Shown one piece after another: positions 9,600 to 19,856 of a DNA stretch of 64,000 nucleotides. Positions within the stretch are counted from its first letter, which is position 1. Each line of letters starts with the position of its first letter. The notes beneath the pieces were generated by a model. It did not search any database. It was not told the DNA's origin and worked only from the letters and a program-made list of their open reading frames with translations. The DNA is from Tessaracoccus palaemonis (GTDB taxonomy: Bacteria > Actinomycetota > Actinomycetes > Propionibacteriales > Propionibacteriaceae): contig NZ_CP079216.1 in NCBI RefSeq assembly GCF_019316905.1, positions 1,054,001-1,118,000 of the forward strand. The letters are read 5' to 3'. The position numbers and the translations under genes are program-made.

Positions 9600-14407
<4,808 letters not shown>

Positions 14408-14409
<2 letters not shown>

Positions 14410-14433
14410 TGGCGGCAGGTGTGAGCCGCCACT
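14408..14433. terminator. Bidirectional hairpin between ligA and the AAA cassette
   Basis: AGTGGCGGC (14408-14416) and GCCGCCACT (14425-14433) form a perfect 9-bp stem with an 8-nt loop. It starts at the ligA stop and ends 6 nt before the last codon of the convergent cassette. There is no U-tract, as is common in high-GC actinobacteria. Confidence 0.6.
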
Positions 14434-14439
14434 GCCCCC

Positions 14440-15171
14440 TCAGCTGTTCGGTTCCTTGAGCTGTCGCGGCATGCAGACATTGAGCCTCTCGCGCCCCTCA
14501 AACTGCGGGAACTCATCGGCGCACCAGTCGAGTACATCGTCCTCGCTGGTGAATGAGTCGCTGAGCCCGAAGGTGATCCAGAGGTTCTTGCCGTCGACCA
14601 GCTGTTGTTTGCCGAAGTCCCGACTGTCGAGGAGTACCACCTGGACACTGGTCACGCTCTGGGCGATATCTTCGAACTCGCTCAGGATGTCGAGAGCGAA
14701 GAACGTGTGGGTGCCGTTCGCCGCCGTGAGGAGTGGGTCGCTGACGCCCACATACTTCGAGGACAACTGAGCGACCCACTGATCGTCTTTCGCGACGATG
14801 GCGTCGTACTGCTTCGCGTATGACTTGAGCTGGCGCAGCGCGGCCTTCTCAGGATCTGGCTGGCTGGAGTCCTCGCCCTCAGAAGGGGGCGGGTCGCTTG
14901 AGGAGGATGACTCGGCGGAAAGGGTCGCTGAGGGCGTCGGTGACGCCATTGGCGTCCCGCCTGCACCGCTGGAAGAGGGCACCGGGGTAGCAGACACCGG
15001 GGTAACTGCAGGCATGGGAGACGCCGATGTGGCGCCCGGTGCAGCCGAATCGGCGGCTCGGCCGCCGATGACCTGCCACACGACATACCCGACGATGACG
15101 AGGATGCCCAGGCCGATGAGGATTGCGGGAACAGGTAGGCGGCGGGGGGCGGGTCCCGGATCTGTGATCAT
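14440..15171 (-). CDS. Cassette protein F: single-pass membrane protein with extracytoplasmic domain, unknown
   Basis: 243 aa, family not recognised. A short basic N-terminus (MITDPGPAPRRLPVP) precedes one membrane helix (about residues 16-36, AILIGLGILVIVGYVVWQV). A Ser/Thr/Pro-rich linker of about 65 residues follows, then a compact C-terminal domain of about 130 residues (KYAKQYDAIVAKDDQWVAQL onward) with two cysteines near the end (DWCADEF and NVCMPRQ) that could form a disulfide. The orientation is probably N-in with the domain outside. The ATG at 15171 has GGAG 5 nt upstream. It is last in the six-gene cassette, 10 nt after the ATPase stop; the hairpin at 14408-14433 ends the unit. It may be the envelope-facing component; this is inference. 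Confidence 0.8.
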   Translation of the reverse strand: MITDPGPAPRRLPVPAILIGLGILVIVGYVVWQVIGGRAADSAAPGATSASPMPAVTPVSATPVPSSSGAGGTPMASPTPSATLSAESSSSSDPPPSEGEDSSQPDPEKAALRQLKSYAKQYDAIVAKDDQWVAQLSSKYVGVSDPLLTAANGTHTFFALDILSEFEDIAQSVTSVQVVLLDSRDFGKQQLVDGKNLWITFGLSDSFTSEDDVLDWCADEFPQFEGRERLNVCMPRQLKEPNS

Positions 15172-15181
15172 CTGATCTCCA

Positions 15182-16729
15182 TCAACCGACGAGAAGCCGG
15201 CGGATCGGGGCGCCGGCCGGGGCATCGATCGCGGGCGGTGTCCCAGCAGGCAGGCAGCGTCCATTCGCCCAGGCGCGCAGATGCGCCACATCCTCGTGAT
15301 TCGTGCGGCTGTAGGGCACGACGTCGACGAACCAGGGACGAAGCTCGTCCTCCGGTGGTAGCAGGGTCGTCCCCTGGGTGAACATCCTCGACGCGATGGA
15401 GTGAACCACCGAGTCGATATCGGAACCGGAGAAGCCGTCCGTGATCCTCACGAGCTCCGTCAGGAGCGCGGGGGAAAGGCGCGCCTCAAGGTAGCGGTCG
15501 AAGTAGAGTTCGATGATCTCGGCGCGGTCGTCAGCATCGGGCAGGTCCACGAAGAACATCTCGTCGAAGCGACCTTTCCGCAGCAACTCAGGGGGGAGCG
15601 CGGACACGTCGTTGGCCGTCGCGACGAGGAACGTCTTGGAGGTGGACTCCTGGAGCCAGTAGAGGAACTGCCCGATCAAGCGCTGGGTCGTGCCGCCCTC
15701 ACCGTTCGACGTGGCAAGTGCCTTCTCGATCTCGTCCACCCACAGGACACAGGGGGCCACCCGATCGGCGGCCGCGAGAGCCTCCCGGAGTCGGGACTCG
15801 GACTGGCCCACGTACATGCCCAGGATCCCCGCCATGTCGAGTCGGTAGAGGGGCAGCCCCCAGCTGTGGGCGATCGCCTTGGCCGAGAGCGACTTCCCGC
15901 AGCCCGGAACCCCGACCAGGAGCACACCCTTGGGCGGGTTCAGACGGGTGGCCGAGAGATCGGCCTTCATGAGGAACTCGCGATCGACCAGCCAACTCTG
16001 CAGCTGCCGTAGCCCACCGACGCTGTAGTCCTCGCGGAGCGGGATGCGTTCGATGCCGGCCAGCGCCCCGAGGATGCGGTCCTTGTACTCCGAGAGTTGG
16101 CTGAGGTCGTCAGGCCCCAACTGCTTCCTGGTGAGCATCGTCATGAGGACGTTGACTGCTTCGGTCTCGGTCACCCCGGTGAGGATCTCCGCCGCGCGGC
16201 GGACCTCGGCAGGGCCCCAGGCCACCGAGACGAGGCCCTCCTGGTCGTTGATGATCGACTGCAGTGTCTCGGCAAGCTCATCGGTCGTCGGAACATCAAG
16301 GGCAACGCTCATTCCCAGCCGCCCCAGCCCCGTCCAGACAGGGTTGGACTCGATCAGGATGATGGAGCCGGAGCAGGCTTCCGCCAGCCGAACCATCTCT
16401 GCGAGATGACGTGAGGTGGACGTCTCGTCTGCGAGGTCCTCGACATCGGTCAGCACGAAGTTGACATTGCGCCGGGCCTTGAAGGTGACGCGCGCCTGAT
16501 CCAAGGCGGCGGCCAGGGAGGTGTCGTCACCCATTGACTGCTGGGTGAGGAGATCCTTGATTCCCTCTGTGCGTGAATGCTCGAAGAAGTTCATCGACCG
16601 GATCTCGTCGGCCACCTGCCGCAGCAGGTCCATGACGCGGCTGGGTTCGATGGACTCGATGATCACCAGCGGAACACGAGCCCTCAGATAGCTGGACACG
16701 AGGTTCGTGGTTTCCTGAAAATCCGGCAA
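15182..16729 (-). CDS. Cassette protein E: Ycf46-like AAA+ ATPase
   Basis: 515-aa AAA+ protein. The N-terminal 200 residues resemble the degenerate AAA-like module of cyanobacterial/plastid Ycf46 ([29 protein letters not shown]). The canonical ATPase domain then contains the conserved lead-in [15 protein letters not shown], Walker A GVPGCGKS (about 273-280), [15 protein letters not shown], Walker [11 protein letters not shown] (about 328-337), sensor 1 [14 protein letters not shown] and arginine-finger region RKGRFDEMF. All key residues are intact, so it should be active. A TTG at 16729 lies 7 nt after GGAG and is preferred; a TTG at 16744 overlapping the upstream stop is possible. Ycf46 proteins in cyanobacteria are tied to inorganic carbon use; the role here is unknown. 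Confidence 0.88.
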
Positions 16730-16740
16730 GGTCCTTCTCC

Positions 16741-17328
16741 TCAATCCAGGTGTACGGTGCGGCGCGGAGTGACTGACATGGGGCGGGAATCCTGATCCTC
16801 GAGGGGCTCAGGTAGGGGAGCACGCTCGGCGCGTTGCCCGTCCTGCGTGACGGTGAGCCGGCGAGCACCCTCGAACGAGTTGTCGCGGATGATCCGCATC
16901 ATCCGTTCCTTCTGCGATCGGGGCACCCTGTCCCGGTCGAGGTCAGCCGCAACGTTCCTCTCGAAATCCTGCTGAAGCCGCTGGACCATCCGGTGGAAGT
17001 CCTCAGTCAGAGCACTTCGGACAGGCTCGGGCAGCGACGGATGCGATACGAGTTGGAGCCGTCGCGCCAGACCCACGCGCAGCTTGATGAGGCGCTCGGC
17101 GAAGTCATGATCACTCCGCAGACCATGCATCGCGCCAGCCAGCTCTCCGTTCCACCGCCTGGTCGATTCCTCAAGCGCCTCCCGGAGGTGGGTGAACAGC
17201 CGTGCGAAGGCCTCAGGGGGAAGGCTGTCATCCCTCAGTTCGGGAAGGTCGTCGAGTGGAGTGGCCGGGTCTTTCCGCCAGACACGCAGCGTCATGACCC
17301 AGGACTCGTACGCGCTCGATCCCCTCAT
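16741..17328 (-). CDS. Cassette protein D: helical protein of unknown function
   Basis: 195 aa, no recognised family. Starting MRGSSAYESWVMTLRVWRK, it is predicted mostly alpha-helical, with long amphipathic stretches (AFARLFTHLREALEESTRRW; ALTEDFHRMVQRLQQDFERN) and a charged, proline-containing C-terminal tail. It has no signal peptide or membrane segment, so it is probably cytoplasmic. It could be an adaptor or scaffold for the adjacent ATPase; this is inference from order. The ATG at 17328 overlaps the stop of gene C in an ATGA arrangement, which decides the start over upstream in-frame codons. It is followed directly by the ATPase gene. Confidence 0.78.
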   Translation of the reverse strand: MRGSSAYESWVMTLRVWRKDPATPLDDLPELRDDSLPPEAFARLFTHLREALEESTRRWNGELAGAMHGLRSDHDFAERLIKLRVGLARRLQLVSHPSLPEPVRSALTEDFHRMVQRLQQDFERNVAADLDRDRVPRSQKERMMRIIRDNSFEGARRLTVTQDGQRAERAPLPEPLEDQDSRPMSVTPRRTVHLD

Positions 17329-17582
17329 GACTTCTTCGGCGCTCGGGTCAGGAGCTCGTCCGGCGGCATGGGGTGCCACGCTGGGAGGTCACCCACCATC
17401 TCCCTCTGACGTTGCGTCTGCTGGTCGGTCTGGCGAGTGGTCGAGTGCAGGACGTTGCGCTCGAGGACCACGTCGGAGCTGACCGGATCGGGCGCCGGGC
17501 GCGGGCGGAACTTCCCGCTGCGGCCGCTTGGCCGCCGGAGTTCGGCTGGCTCAGGCTGGGGGGACGTGACCGCGTCGGTCAT
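17325..17582 (-). CDS. Cassette protein C: small proline-rich protein, unknown
   Basis: 85 aa (MTDAVTSPQPEPAELRRPSG...), rich in Pro, Arg and Gln and probably largely disordered. A short hydrophobic patch (SSDVVLERNVLH) could be a binding motif. No homologous family is recognised. It is accepted as a gene because both ends are 4-nt ATGA overlaps: its start with gene B (17579-17582) and its stop with gene D (17325-17328). That pattern would be unlikely by chance and implies coupled translation. It may tether partners in the complex; this is inference. Confidence 0.72.
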   Translation of the reverse strand: MTDAVTSPQPEPAELRRPSGRSGKFRPRPAPDPVSSDVVLERNVLHSTTRQTDQQTQRQREMVGDLPAWHPMPPDELLTRAPKKS

Positions 17583-19324
17583 GCCGACACCTCCTGATCC
17601 GTGCGCTGTGCGGTGGGCCAGGTCTCTATGAGGCTGATCAGATCAGCCTCCTGGCGATCGAGGGACCGATAGAGGTCAAGCGCATCGACTCGCTCCGCCA
17701 GGGCGTTGCGGTACTTCGCGATGGAGACCTCCGCCGCCTTGTCCCGCGCGTCCTCCAGCGCGACGATTGCGGCCTTCGAAGCCTTCTTCGCTTCCTCCGC
17801 GAAGAACCACACGACTCCGGCACCGATGAGTGCCGCAGCAATGCCGAAGGCCACGTTGAAGAGGCCGACGACAATGGCGATGCCGAGCACGAGGATGGCT
17901 TTCCCGCCGTACCAGGAGTTGTCGAAGCGTGCCTTCTCCAGGTGGCTGGACATGGTACGCACCCACGCCTCCCGGAGTCTCGCCACTCCAGCATCCTCCG
18001 GCAGCTCCGTAGAGAATGAGGCGCCTCCGAATGCGTATTCGCGGGCGTAGTTCGAGTGCTGGTCGGTGAAGTCGAGGCGCAGGTGTTCGAGGGCGGACTG
18101 GCGGTAGGCCGCACAGTACCGCCCGATGGCCGTCAGAAGATGGGCCTGGGACGCGCCGATGGCGATGCGCTGGGTCTGTACGCTAGCGCCCAGCAGTTCG
18201 GGCGCGATCGCAGTCTGGGTCTGCAGTGAAATGGCGTCCGTGGTCTCGTCCAGGGCCTTCTGCAGCTCGTCGGCGCGTCGCCTCGCCAGCGCGATGTCGC
18301 CGCCCTCCTCGATCACCGACTCGTGGTACAGGACCTCGCGGCGCAGGGGGAGCTCCTCCGCGTCGTACTCAGTGACGAGGCGGTCTACCAGATCGTCCAT
18401 CAGGTCTTCCAGAGCCGTCGGGAGACTGGTCTCATGGCGAGCGATCGACCCGTACTTGTCGATCATGACCGGAAGGCTGGAGGCGACCTCGAGTTGGTTG
18501 ACGAGTACCGGCCAGTCGGTCGGCGACAGGTCGGCGAGGTTGGGGTAGCCCGCCGGATCCAGCTGCTCAGTCTGGCTCTGGAGCTCACCCAGCCAACGCG
18601 CGATCTGCTGTTGAACGATGTCGTCGCTGGCGCTGAGCTGCGTGACCCAGTCGGCCAGCCGCCTCGTCATGAGCTGTTGGGCGGCGGGCCCGAAGGCGTT
18701 GAAGCTCGCCGCTTCGAAGATGACGGTGAACTCGCGTCCGAGCCTTCCCGGATCCTGGGCCTCGAGGTAGTGCTTGAGCCACCGAGTTGAGGCCTCTAGG
18801 CGGCCCTGCCGTCTGAGGATGATGGTGAAGAGCAGGGACGTCTTCGACCTGTCGCGGGCATAGGCCTCACGCACTGATCTCTCGGCCATCTCCTGGTCGT
18901 GGTTCGCCCAGGCAGCCAGGGCGACGAGGGCAGGTGCCAGCCAATAGCGAGGTGTCTGCAGCATCAACTCCTCGGATATCTGGGCGGTGACAGCGCGGGA
19001 TACATTCCCGACATCGAATGCCTGGAGTAGGCCAACTGACGTGCGTCGGACGACCGCATGGTGGCCGTAGCTGCGGTCGAGGTCCGCCTTCAGGTTCACC
19101 ACGCGGGTCTCGGACTGCTGTACGGCTGCGGTGCGGCCGGCCTGCTGCACGAACGCATCGAACTCGCTTCGCAGCGCGATGAGTTGGTCGGTGGTGAGCC
19201 GGAGGTCCTGGGCGACCATCCCGACTCTCGCGTCGACCTGGTTGATGTTCTGGGAGAGTTCCAATCCAACGTTGTCGACGGCCCTGATGACGGGGCTGAA
19301 GTCGATGCTGATGCTCTGCGTCAT
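17579..19324 (-). CDS. Cassette protein B: large helical protein with a C-terminal membrane hairpin, unknown
   Basis: 581 aa, no recognised family. Residues 20-85 look coiled-coil forming (LELSQNINQVDARVGMVAQD...). Residues 125-190 resemble TPR-like helical repeats (WLAPALVALAAWANHDQEMAERS...). Residues 335-365 form a second heptad-rich stretch. A strongly hydrophobic segment of about 35 residues (474-508) contains a central FNVAFG turn and can span the membrane twice, leaving most of the protein and the Ala/Lys-rich tail in the cytoplasm. Start MTQSISIDFS at 19324 has GGAG at normal spacing. It is the second and largest gene of the cassette and overlaps gene C by ATGA. It is the likely membrane anchor of the system; this is inference. 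Confidence 0.8.
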   Translation of the reverse strand: MTQSISIDFSPVIRAVDNVGLELSQNINQVDARVGMVAQDLRLTTDQLIALRSEFDAFVQQAGRTAAVQQSETRVVNLKADLDRSYGHHAVVRRTSVGLLQAFDVGNVSRAVTAQISEELMLQTPRYWLAPALVALAAWANHDQEMAERSVREAYARDRSKTSLLFTIILRRQGRLEASTRWLKHYLEAQDPGRLGREFTVIFEAASFNAFGPAAQQLMTRRLADWVTQLSASDDIVQQQIARWLGELQSQTEQLDPAGYPNLADLSPTDWPVLVNQLEVASSLPVMIDKYGSIARHETSLPTALEDLMDDLVDRLVTEYDAEELPLRREVLYHESVIEEGGDIALARRRADELQKALDETTDAISLQTQTAIAPELLGASVQTQRIAIGASQAHLLTAIGRYCAAYRQSALEHLRLDFTDQHSNYAREYAFGGASFSTELPEDAGVARLREAWVRTMSSHLEKARFDNSWYGGKAILVLGIAIVVGLFNVAFGIAAALIGAGVVWFFAEEAKKASKAAIVALEDARDKAAEVSIAKYRNALAERVDALDLYRSLDRQEADLISLIETWPTAQRTDQEVSA

Positions 19325-19332
19325 GGGGGCTC

Positions 19333-19782
19333 CTACGTGATCGGCTGTCCGTTGGCACGGACTGGGACGAGGGATCCGTCGTCATACACCTCGATGAAGG
19401 CGTAGGCGTCGGAGCGCGCCAGGGCTCGGGCTGCGGCAAGGTGTGGGGCGAGAGCCTCGCTCCTCTTGAAGTGCGTCAGAATCGTGCCGTCCAGCGACAT
19501 GAGATGGTCGAGGTATGGCTCTCCGAGCTGACATCTGGCAAAGAGCGCTACGGGGTTCCCCAGGTCGCTCTCCTGATAGATCGAGTTCACGTAGCTAGTG
19601 ACGGCCCTCAGCGCATCTGGACCGGTCGTCGTATCCAGTTGTGTGACCGCTGTCATCAGCGAGGTGGGGCGGGTCCGTCCAGCTCGGGTGGTGTCGAGGG
19701 GGACTGTCGAGGGCGTCGAGGTCCGGGCGCTCGTCGATAGGTCCAAGGAACGCTCCGTTGCAACGCGTCGTCTGAGTGACAT
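19333..19782 (-). CDS. Cassette protein A: first gene, unknown
   Basis: 149 aa, not assigned to a family. The first 45 residues are basic and Ser/Thr-rich (MSLRRRVATERSLDLSTSAR...), probably disordered. The remaining 100 form a compact alpha/beta domain (DALRAVTSYVNSIYQESDLG ... AYAFIEVYDDGSLVPVRANG). It has no signal sequence. The ATG at 19782 is preceded by AGGAGAGG at good spacing, which decides it over in-frame codons further upstream. It ends in TAG, 8 nt before gene B. As leading gene it may be the regulatory or effector-recognition component, but nothing in the sequence shows that. Confidence 0.78.
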   Translation of the reverse strand: MSLRRRVATERSLDLSTSARTSTPSTVPLDTTRAGRTRPTSLMTAVTQLDTTTGPDALRAVTSYVNSIYQESDLGNPVALFARCQLGEPYLDHLMSLDGTILTHFKRSEALAPHLAAARALARSDAYAFIEVYDDGSLVPVRANGQPIT

Positions 19783-19800
19783 TGGCCTCTCCTGCGGGAT

Positions 19801-19818
19801 GTGAGGGCGGACCCTCAC
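19801..19818. promoter_or_regulatory. Perfect inverted repeat in the divergent cassette/rpiB promoter region
   Basis: GTGAGGG (19801-19807) and CCCTCAC (19812-19818) are perfect inverted repeats with a CGGA centre. They lie 18 bp upstream of cassette gene A and 10 bp from the rpiB -35 candidate. This could be an operator for a regulator of the cassette or a hairpin in its leader; the two cannot be told apart here. Confidence 0.45.
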
Positions 19819-19828
19819 TTTCTGTCGC

Positions 19829-19856
19829 TTGTTCCTGACGGACAGGGCCATAGTGT
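19829..19856 (+). promoter_or_regulatory. rpiB promoter
   Basis: TTGTTC (19829-19834) and TAGTGT (19851-19856) with a 16-bp spacer. The -10 ends 7 nt before the rpiB ATG at 19864, so the transcript is predicted to be leaderless. Confidence 0.5.

Follow-up and report, generated by a model that had tools for sequence, protein, structure and literature searches.

Conflict systems that pair an AAA+ ATPase with effectors have been described around MoxR and vWA proteins (Kaur et al. 2020, PMC7159879). The gene cassette of Tessaracoccus palaemonis reported here lies in a 64,000-nucleotide stretch (contig NZ_CP079216.1, positions 1,054,001 to 1,118,000; hereafter the window) of a one-contig genome of 3.2 Mb. 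Its genes, designated F, E, D, C, B, and A in the direction of reading, are all located on the minus strand, at the positions assigned by a preliminary description of this DNA. Five of them, F-E-D-C-B, form a co-inherited, mobile set acquired by transfer. Compared with the MoxR-vWA systems (PMC7159879), the cassette shares an AAA+ ATPase, scaffold partners, variable caspase-type effectors, and a patchy spread, and ubiquitin-like genes accompany some members of both. The window cassette differs from the systems outlined there in containing neither vWA nor MoxR genes, and its proteins C, D, E, and F match no Pfam family. In the Pfam scan of the six proteins, classical AAA was the top-scoring model for B, and vWA models gave no match.

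The best solved relatives of B are VCP-like ATPases (VCP/p97-CDC48), but B contains one full AAA module. Cofactors of p97 bind via short arginine-rich motifs, whereas in the cassette both the ATPase and its partners bear the end-peptide. The IetA model of the IetAS defense system matches the AAA region of B (8.8e-25, residues 255-461 only), and none of the six window proteins matched a subtilisin-like model. The 2023 PADLOC library yielded generic AAA matches for B and, as the sole other match, protein E at an E-value of 0.36. Neither the FtsK/EccC pump nor the WXG100 partner of type VII secretion was present in the window cassette, as judged from open reading frames and Pfam. The caspase-dependent CATRA conflict systems (PMC8195603) share a caspase partner with the cassette, in the loci of a single large-genome actinobacterial genus only (g52, probably Streptomyces); the Pfam scans gave no CATRA match, the presence of such a model in the library being unchecked. 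The CHAT-protease neighbor in g52 resembles the TPR-CHAT protein Csx29 of Craspase (PMC10028731) in its large size and in bearing a CHAT domain at the C-terminus; however, Pfam calls no TPRs in it above the cut-off, and it is partnered with B, E, and a caspase. In the cassette loci read, we noticed no CRISPR effector. A description of the cassette was not found in the openly licensed literature searched, which is not proof of absence.

Proteins E, D, C, B, and F are all encoded in 15 of 15 loci (the window, L027, L041, L042, L043, L032, L033, L034, L077, L079, L080, L081, L082, L087, and L096). The loci were selected via matches to E or B, and the count therefore informs on the partners. A second Komagataeibacter record with identical E and F (L078), the remnant in genome G070 (L028), and loci of distant E-like proteins, which either align to part of E or come without B, C, and F (L029-L031, L035-L037, and L191), were excluded, and ten later loci of g52 (L181-L190) were analyzed apart. 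The 15 loci span Actinomycetota, Pseudomonadota (alpha- and betaproteobacterial plasmids), Fusobacteriota, a Streptococcus satellite phage, and two IMG/VR contigs. The order F-E-D-C-B was found by tblastn in G076 of the same family, Nesterenkonia muleiensis, Pseudoclavibacter helvolus, a metagenome-assembled genome of Demequina lutea, and three large-genome actinobacteria, in which D is weak and was confirmed by motif. It recurs in the IMG/VR contig L096 and, as a full set, in G619 of the same genus. The order is E-D-C-B-F in Fusobacterium vincentii, at the end of the Streptococcus satellite phage Javan368, and in the other IMG/VR contig; one set lies on an IMG/VR contig with serine recombinases, identified by eye. 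Among plasmids, the set is carried by two records of Komagataeibacter nataicola and by a megaplasmid of Comamonas antarctica; their annotation lists an AAA ATPase together with hypothetical proteins, and D is left unannotated in one of them. The recurrence in such distant genomes shows that the gene set of the window is more than a chance arrangement.

The cassette is rare. At an E-value of at most 0.001, matches to protein E were obtained in 6 of 147 genomes of the family and in 11 of 394 genomes of the class; three of the former are full length, as are four of the latter, including the window genome. An E profile at 1e-10 detected it in 4/293 order genomes, one with a decayed set, and in 4/396 phylum genomes, two of the matches being partial. 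B was matched at 1e-40 in 2/147 family genomes. E occurs in 12 of the 295 genomes of g52, in 4 of 72,556 plasmid records, and in 1 of 50,697 phage records, and a single scan of the GTDB contig collection confirmed three loci among 39 pattern matches. The set in G070 has decayed to a full-length E, the tail of F, and fragments of D and B, with no match to C; one TGA in its E was flagged in one search, and none in the profile search. A 3,971-nucleotide Comamonas query matched nothing at the DNA level in a collection of E. coli genomes, and E. coli-centered surveys would therefore miss the cassette.

The preliminary description had proposed that a transferred module interrupts the housekeeping genes ligA and rpiB, and comparison with an uninterrupted site confirmed this. 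In the closest relative found, G621, ligA and rpiB are 96% identical to those of the window, and the ligA stop codon is located 7 nucleotides from the rpiB ATG. Homology of the window to G621 stops at 14412 and restarts at 19855, which delimits an insert of about 5.44 kb with boundaries uncertain by a few nucleotides. The sequence TAGTG is present at both edges, and is possibly a target duplication or chance microhomology. No integrase-like frame was seen among the open reading frames of the insert. The transfer is further documented by the complete sets on plasmids, in the satellite phage, and in distant phyla. We looked for rpiB in 39 genomes of the genus and located it in 27: ligA directly precedes it in 14, pepN adjoins it in five, ligA ends about 1.3 kb away in four, the window genome accounts for one, and three show neither ligA nor pepN within the 1.5 kb examined. 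The four genomes with the gap of about 1.3 kb (L134, L146, L147, and L151) raise the possibility that the interval is a small insertion hot spot.

B matches Pfam AAA (7.2e-31, residues 269-395) and the unnamed family PHROG 8638 (2.6e-84, residues 11-506). Its ATPase motifs are intact, as had been described: the Walker A, Walker B, sensor-1 asparagine, and arginine-finger positions are invariant among the B proteins of cassette relatives, judged by eye from alignments. A scan of virus contigs with the Comamonas B retrieved 31 loci, and E, F, and C accompany the ATPase in the two that rank first and second in identity (63% and 54%). E, C, and F were not found in the flanks of the other 29, which extend up to 9 kb on each side and less at contig ends; a few of these 29 are near-copies, and their best segments are 28-46% identical to the Comamonas B. 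Two further virus scans with other cassette B queries, judged by identity without a search of the loci for E, recovered these two cassette contigs again but no additional one. A tree was computed from 45 sequences (15 cassette B, 26 of the 29 virus-scan relatives with three near-copies left out, and 4 from plasmids), and in it all 15 cassette rows form a single clade with support 100/100 on a branch of 1.71. Pairwise correlations between the distance matrices of B, E, C, and F range from 0.867 to 0.928, and none of 5000 permutations was as high. Since the set crosses phyla, the correlation shows that the subunits travel together, though shared descent alone would also produce correlation.

The assignment of B to the Ycf46 family is tentative. 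Ycf46-like ATPases from Rhodococcus, Paenarthrobacter, Geminocystis, and Treponema plasmids combine an N-terminal module with one classical AAA domain as B does, and B has the AAA domain and the long match to PHROG 8638, a family that itself carries no name. However, cassette B forms the separate, long-branched clade among the 45 sequences compared, and E was not found with the 30 other relatives; "Ycf46-like" denotes an apparent resemblance. The four Ycf46-like copies read, out of seven non-cassette plasmid records, have DUF2997, DUF1257, 4Fe-4S, or baseplate neighbors, unlike the cassette. On the actinobacterial plasmids of L083 and L084, an AAA gene is accompanied by a hypothetical protein, DUF2997, a further gene, and a 4Fe-4S protein, which form an alternative partner set. 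The preliminary description regarded an ATPase present in relatives without the other genes as evidence against a unit; such ATPases exist in the wider family, but not in the cassette clade as sampled. No result of this analysis ties the cassette to inorganic-carbon use.

Unrelated proteins of the cassette share a short end-peptide. Its pattern, R-x-phi-phi with phi being V, I, L, M, or F, was sought within 12 residues of the protein end in the 15 loci. The end-peptide is present at the C-terminus of B in 15/15 loci (expected 0.62), the N-terminus of F in 12/15 (0.70), the C-terminus of C in 10/15 (0.68), and the C-terminus of E in 6/15 (0.63), including four of the six non-actinobacterial loci. 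Shuffling the terminal 45 residues 5000 times never produced any of these counts, and the opposite ends scored 0/15 each. The start of F was set by hand with the motif in view in L027, L042, L032, and L033; without these loci, F has the end-peptide in 9/11 (expected 0.57, 0/5000 shuffles). Among eight spread representatives, it occurs in eight B, six F, five C, and four E proteins. The later g52 loci, a partial hold-out from one genus, have it in B 9/9, C 10/10, and E 2/11, and seven of their eight legible F tails read PRR[IV]V by eye and one PRRAV, with two of the ten being illegible. Only 2 of 29 non-cassette ATPase relatives carry the end-peptide. The F and C proteins of the window retain the RR without the two hydrophobic residues. 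FtsK-like proteins beside two cassettes start with a similar RRRI or RRGRRV, as seen by eye. That unrelated proteins encoded in one operon carry the same end-peptide points most readily to one docking site; our guess is that the common docking surface may be the TPR-like groove of E.

In g52, the cassette is adjacent to protease genes. Among 13 loci of the genus, 12 from the scan of 295 genomes and one from the class scan, a CHAT-protease gene is located at most two genes from the cassette in 12, and a caspase gene in 11. In ten loci, a divergent caspase gene followed by the CHAT-protease gene is positioned upstream of F. The contig of L183 ends at its caspase gene, and B is off the contig end. 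In L189 and L190, the CHAT gene follows B and no caspase match was obtained; in L188, F was not found by tblastn. Four g52 cassette genomes have two to six CHAT match rows each, which makes chance adjacency very unlikely. A catalytic-dyad pattern is present in 10 of 11 caspase loci (not in L188) and in 10 of 12 CHAT loci (not in L189 and L190).

Scans of Pfam, NCBIfam, PADLOC, and PHROG gave nothing convincing for the four partners C, D, E, and F, in agreement with their initial listing as unassigned. The predicted structure of E (mean predicted local distance difference test score, pLDDT, 83.7; alignments A1 and A5) contains a TPR-like region at approximately residues 87-211, and its best structural matches are TPR proteins. 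A Pfam scan of 12 E proteins gave one weak helical match (0.0014) and no others at 0.01. Hydropathy over 19 residues exceeds 1.6 in 15/15 E proteins, in a stretch ending at residues 488-522, and E is the only core protein of the window with a membrane-like stretch. Distant E-like proteins were encountered in L191 (8910-10565), L029-L031, and L035-L037, and the E core may serve outside the cassette; B, C, and F were not found in L191, nor by tblastn in the other six loci. D was located in all 15 loci, in six as a called or annotated frame, in eight through its motif, sought in the interval between E and C, and in one (L080) by reading of that interval; a strict version of its motif fits three of the six called proteins. 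The best library match of C has an E-value of 0.088 (alignment A3, seven sequences). F is composed of a low-confidence N-terminal tail and an α/β domain, in which C84, H93, H104, and E131 are invariant (alignments A4, n=8, and A6, n=11). Its model has a mean pLDDT of 76.2, with residues 1-30 below 50, and no match to F at an E-value of up to 1 was present in Pfam, NCBIfam, PADLOC, or PHROG.

Table 1. Coordinates of cassette genes and associated features in the window.
Feature	Position	Strand	Description
F	19333-19782	-	149-residue core protein
E	17579-19324	-	581-residue core scaffold; long coiled coil, TPR-like region, membrane hairpin
D	17325-17582	-	Proline-rich 85-residue core linker
C	16741-17328	-	195-residue core protein
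B	15182-16729	-	515-residue AAA+ ATPase, TTG start; classical (CDC48/FtsH-like) clade
A	14440-15171	-	243-residue single-pass protein with outer domain; accessory, outside the core
Bidirectional hairpin, ligA/A junction	14408-14433	.	Fold of -21.2 kcal/mol for 14400-14440
Inverted repeat upstream of F	19801-19818	.	Terminator-like on the plus strand; chance alone would give 1.8 such sites in the region
Inserted segment between ligA and rpiB	14413-19854	.	Alignment to the uninterrupted site of G621 (L128)
B Walker A, GVPGCGKS	15890-15913	-	Invariant in alignments A2 and A7
B C-terminal end-peptide, IRRLLVG	15185-15205	-	Fits the pattern
F N-terminal end-peptide, MSLRRRV	19762-19782	-	Window copy misses strict R-x-phi-phi
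C C-terminal end-peptide, PRRTVHLD	16744-16767	-	Window copy departs from the strict form
E membrane hairpin, residues 470-510	17795-17917	-	41-residue hydrophobic stretch, from hydropathy
D C-terminal conserved motif, LPAWHPMPPDELLTR	17343-17387	-	[LF]P-x-W-...-P-...-R, identified by eye

The open reading frames bear out the compact arrangement noted at the outset: 4-nucleotide overlaps at E/D and D/C, and gaps of 8, 11, and 10 nucleotides at the remaining junctions. Ribosome-binding sites, judged by eye, are clear for five of the six genes and weak for C. The hairpin described at the ligA/A junction folds strongly. The proposed divergent promoter with an inverted repeat stands as regards the repeat, whereas the promoter gained no support and was not disproved: no promoter-like site was found on the minus strand in a scan for the sigma-70 type, with other promoter types outside that scan. 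The G+C content at third codon positions is 0.745-0.849 in the six genes and averages 0.920 (standard deviation 0.054) in the 33 other open reading frames of at least 200 codons in the window, in line with the lower G/C bias reported earlier, though three of these 33 are equally low (0.74-0.79). The six-gene unit had to be reduced to five. A has one transmembrane segment, and its outer domain belongs to a separate family carried by 15 of 147 family genomes, 13 of which have no cassette match, the exceptions being the window genome and G076; A is an optional neighbor of the conserved unit F-E-D-C-B. The membrane anchor of the proposed AAA machine is retained as the hairpin of E, but the outer domain belongs to the accessory A, so that the proposed span from cytoplasm to cell surface has no support for the core.

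The cassettes have varied neighbors outside g52. An FtsK-like pump gene and a coiled-coil transmembrane gene lie upstream of the cassette in G076 and Nesterenkonia, and are unlinked to it in Pseudoclavibacter. In a search that covered part of the loci, an FtsK-like gene was adjacent in 2/15 and a HerA-type pump gene in a third (L096). On L096, a contig classed as viral, HerA, Prok-E2, and JAB-ThiF genes are beside the cassette, with the prokaryotic E2 (family E) and JAB-ThiF fusion genes downstream at 13752-15848. In G619, a TPR gene and a TY-Chap1 gene (26.5 bits, below the cut-off of 27) follow B. A vWA-like DUF2201 gene is located about 6 kb from E in L082, and integrase, RepA, and toxin-antitoxin genes are near the Komagataeibacter cassettes. 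A minus-strand trio in G076 (L027, 10297-11535) encodes a 225-residue protein, with a helical N-terminal half and a C-terminal half ending NGRHRIAIARRLG, and two small helical partners. The 225-residue protein appears toxin-like by eye and has no Pfam match, and one of the small partners is present again in Nesterenkonia and, in Pseudoclavibacter, next to the FtsK-like gene. The window genome also contains a type VII-secretion-like locus (L089, G000:C1:262000-281500), apart from the cassette, with large EccC-like ATPase, EccD-like, and WXG100-like genes recognized by eye.

Because of the co-inheritance of the five genes, their mobility and insertion, the end-peptides, the CHAT/caspase adjacency in g52, and the HerA, E2, and JAB-ThiF genes of L096, we give about even chances to the cassette being a horizontally mobile AAA+ conflict or cell-death machine, with parts docking via the shared end-peptides. 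From family knowledge, B is expected to form an ATP-driven ring. E would be a membrane-anchored scaffold with a TPR-like region and a coiled coil, and D a linear-motif linker. One receptor surface, most likely the TPR-like groove of E, would receive the B, C, and F tails, joined by the E tail in four of the six non-actinobacterial loci, and docking would place the B ring at the membrane. On sensing a threat, B might pull on or release F or another client, and the output could be growth arrest, cell death, or client proteolysis. In g52, the CHAT protease, usually with the caspase, may be the output or the trigger.

Several observations speak against a conflict machine wired in this way. The CHAT/caspase adjacency was found in one genus only, the single CHAT match of the window genome (a 902-residue frame, G000:C1:435205-435840) is far from the cassette, and the cassette neighbors in Comamonas and Fusobacterium are mostly metabolic-looking, unlike a defense island. 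C, D, E, and F match no PADLOC model, and distant E-like proteins such as that of L191 stand alone. The strict end-peptide is missing from F in 3/15 loci, the window included, and from C in 5/15 (the window, L027, and L080-L082), with nothing similar in L080-L082. One E match (RDLL in L043) looks fortuitous, in addition to the low count among later E proteins. Some non-cassette tails are loosely similar, several of them ending R-x-phi-D/N-phi. The pattern was picked after the tails had been viewed, and related rows are not independent.

Membrane or envelope quality control, in which B would extract or remodel membrane or coiled-coil clients held by E and a stress advantage in particular niches would explain the transfer, is in our view rather unlikely. 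The VCP/FtsH-type ATPase, the membrane hairpin of E, and the TPR and TY-Chap1 genes of G619 all fit such a role; however, the cassette is rare and patchy, is borne by plasmids and a satellite phage, and has caspase and CHAT neighbors in one genus. Its mobile carriers lend themselves to another explanation, a maintenance or exclusion set of mobile elements acting in plasmid stabilization or superinfection exclusion instead of host defense or cell death. The plasmid and satellite-phage sites and the genes near the Komagataeibacter sets agree with it, but several copies, including that of the window, are on chromosome-size contigs, and the window insert shows no integrase-like frame, so that we regard this function as improbable.

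The FtsK-like, coiled-coil transmembrane, and small helical protein genes adjoining the cassette in G076 and Nesterenkonia suggest a type VII-like secretion or polymorphic-toxin apparatus, in which the pump and its helical partners would export a toxin and B would recycle components. The same gene types occur elsewhere in the Pseudoclavibacter genome, and the resemblance of the helical protein to WXG100 is weak (E-value 0.03). We consider an apparatus of this kind quite improbable, since the window genome has only distant FtsK/EccC matches, and no match to the helical partner was present in 7 of 10 genomes tested, including G070, which has only the decayed cassette. E could also be a membrane-permeabilizing effector of the alpha-pore type, kept inactive by B, C, and F, as its long helices with a hydrophobic hairpin and the weak Foldseek listings of MakA, AhlB, YaxA, and SmhB (E-values 0.14-0.68) might indicate. 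With no Foldseek match at an E-value of 0.001 or below, and with TPR proteins as the best structural matches of E, a pore is highly improbable.

The cassette ties four families without an assigned relative in the searched libraries, C, D, E, and F, to one ATPase across phyla, and to caspase and CHAT proteases in one genus. It lies outside the scanned defense library, PADLOC. We tentatively suggest, as a possibility that we would not yet favor, that it represents an undescribed class of mobile immune or cell-death machine, in which an AAA+ ring, a TPR-like scaffold with a membrane hairpin, and three small proteins would be joined by an end-peptide address code and connected to interchangeable outputs, such as CHAT and caspase proteases, FtsK/HerA pumps, or a ubiquitin-like pathway. 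If the cassette is a conflict system, it would be a new AAA+ type, the wiring of which the shared end-peptide makes directly testable.

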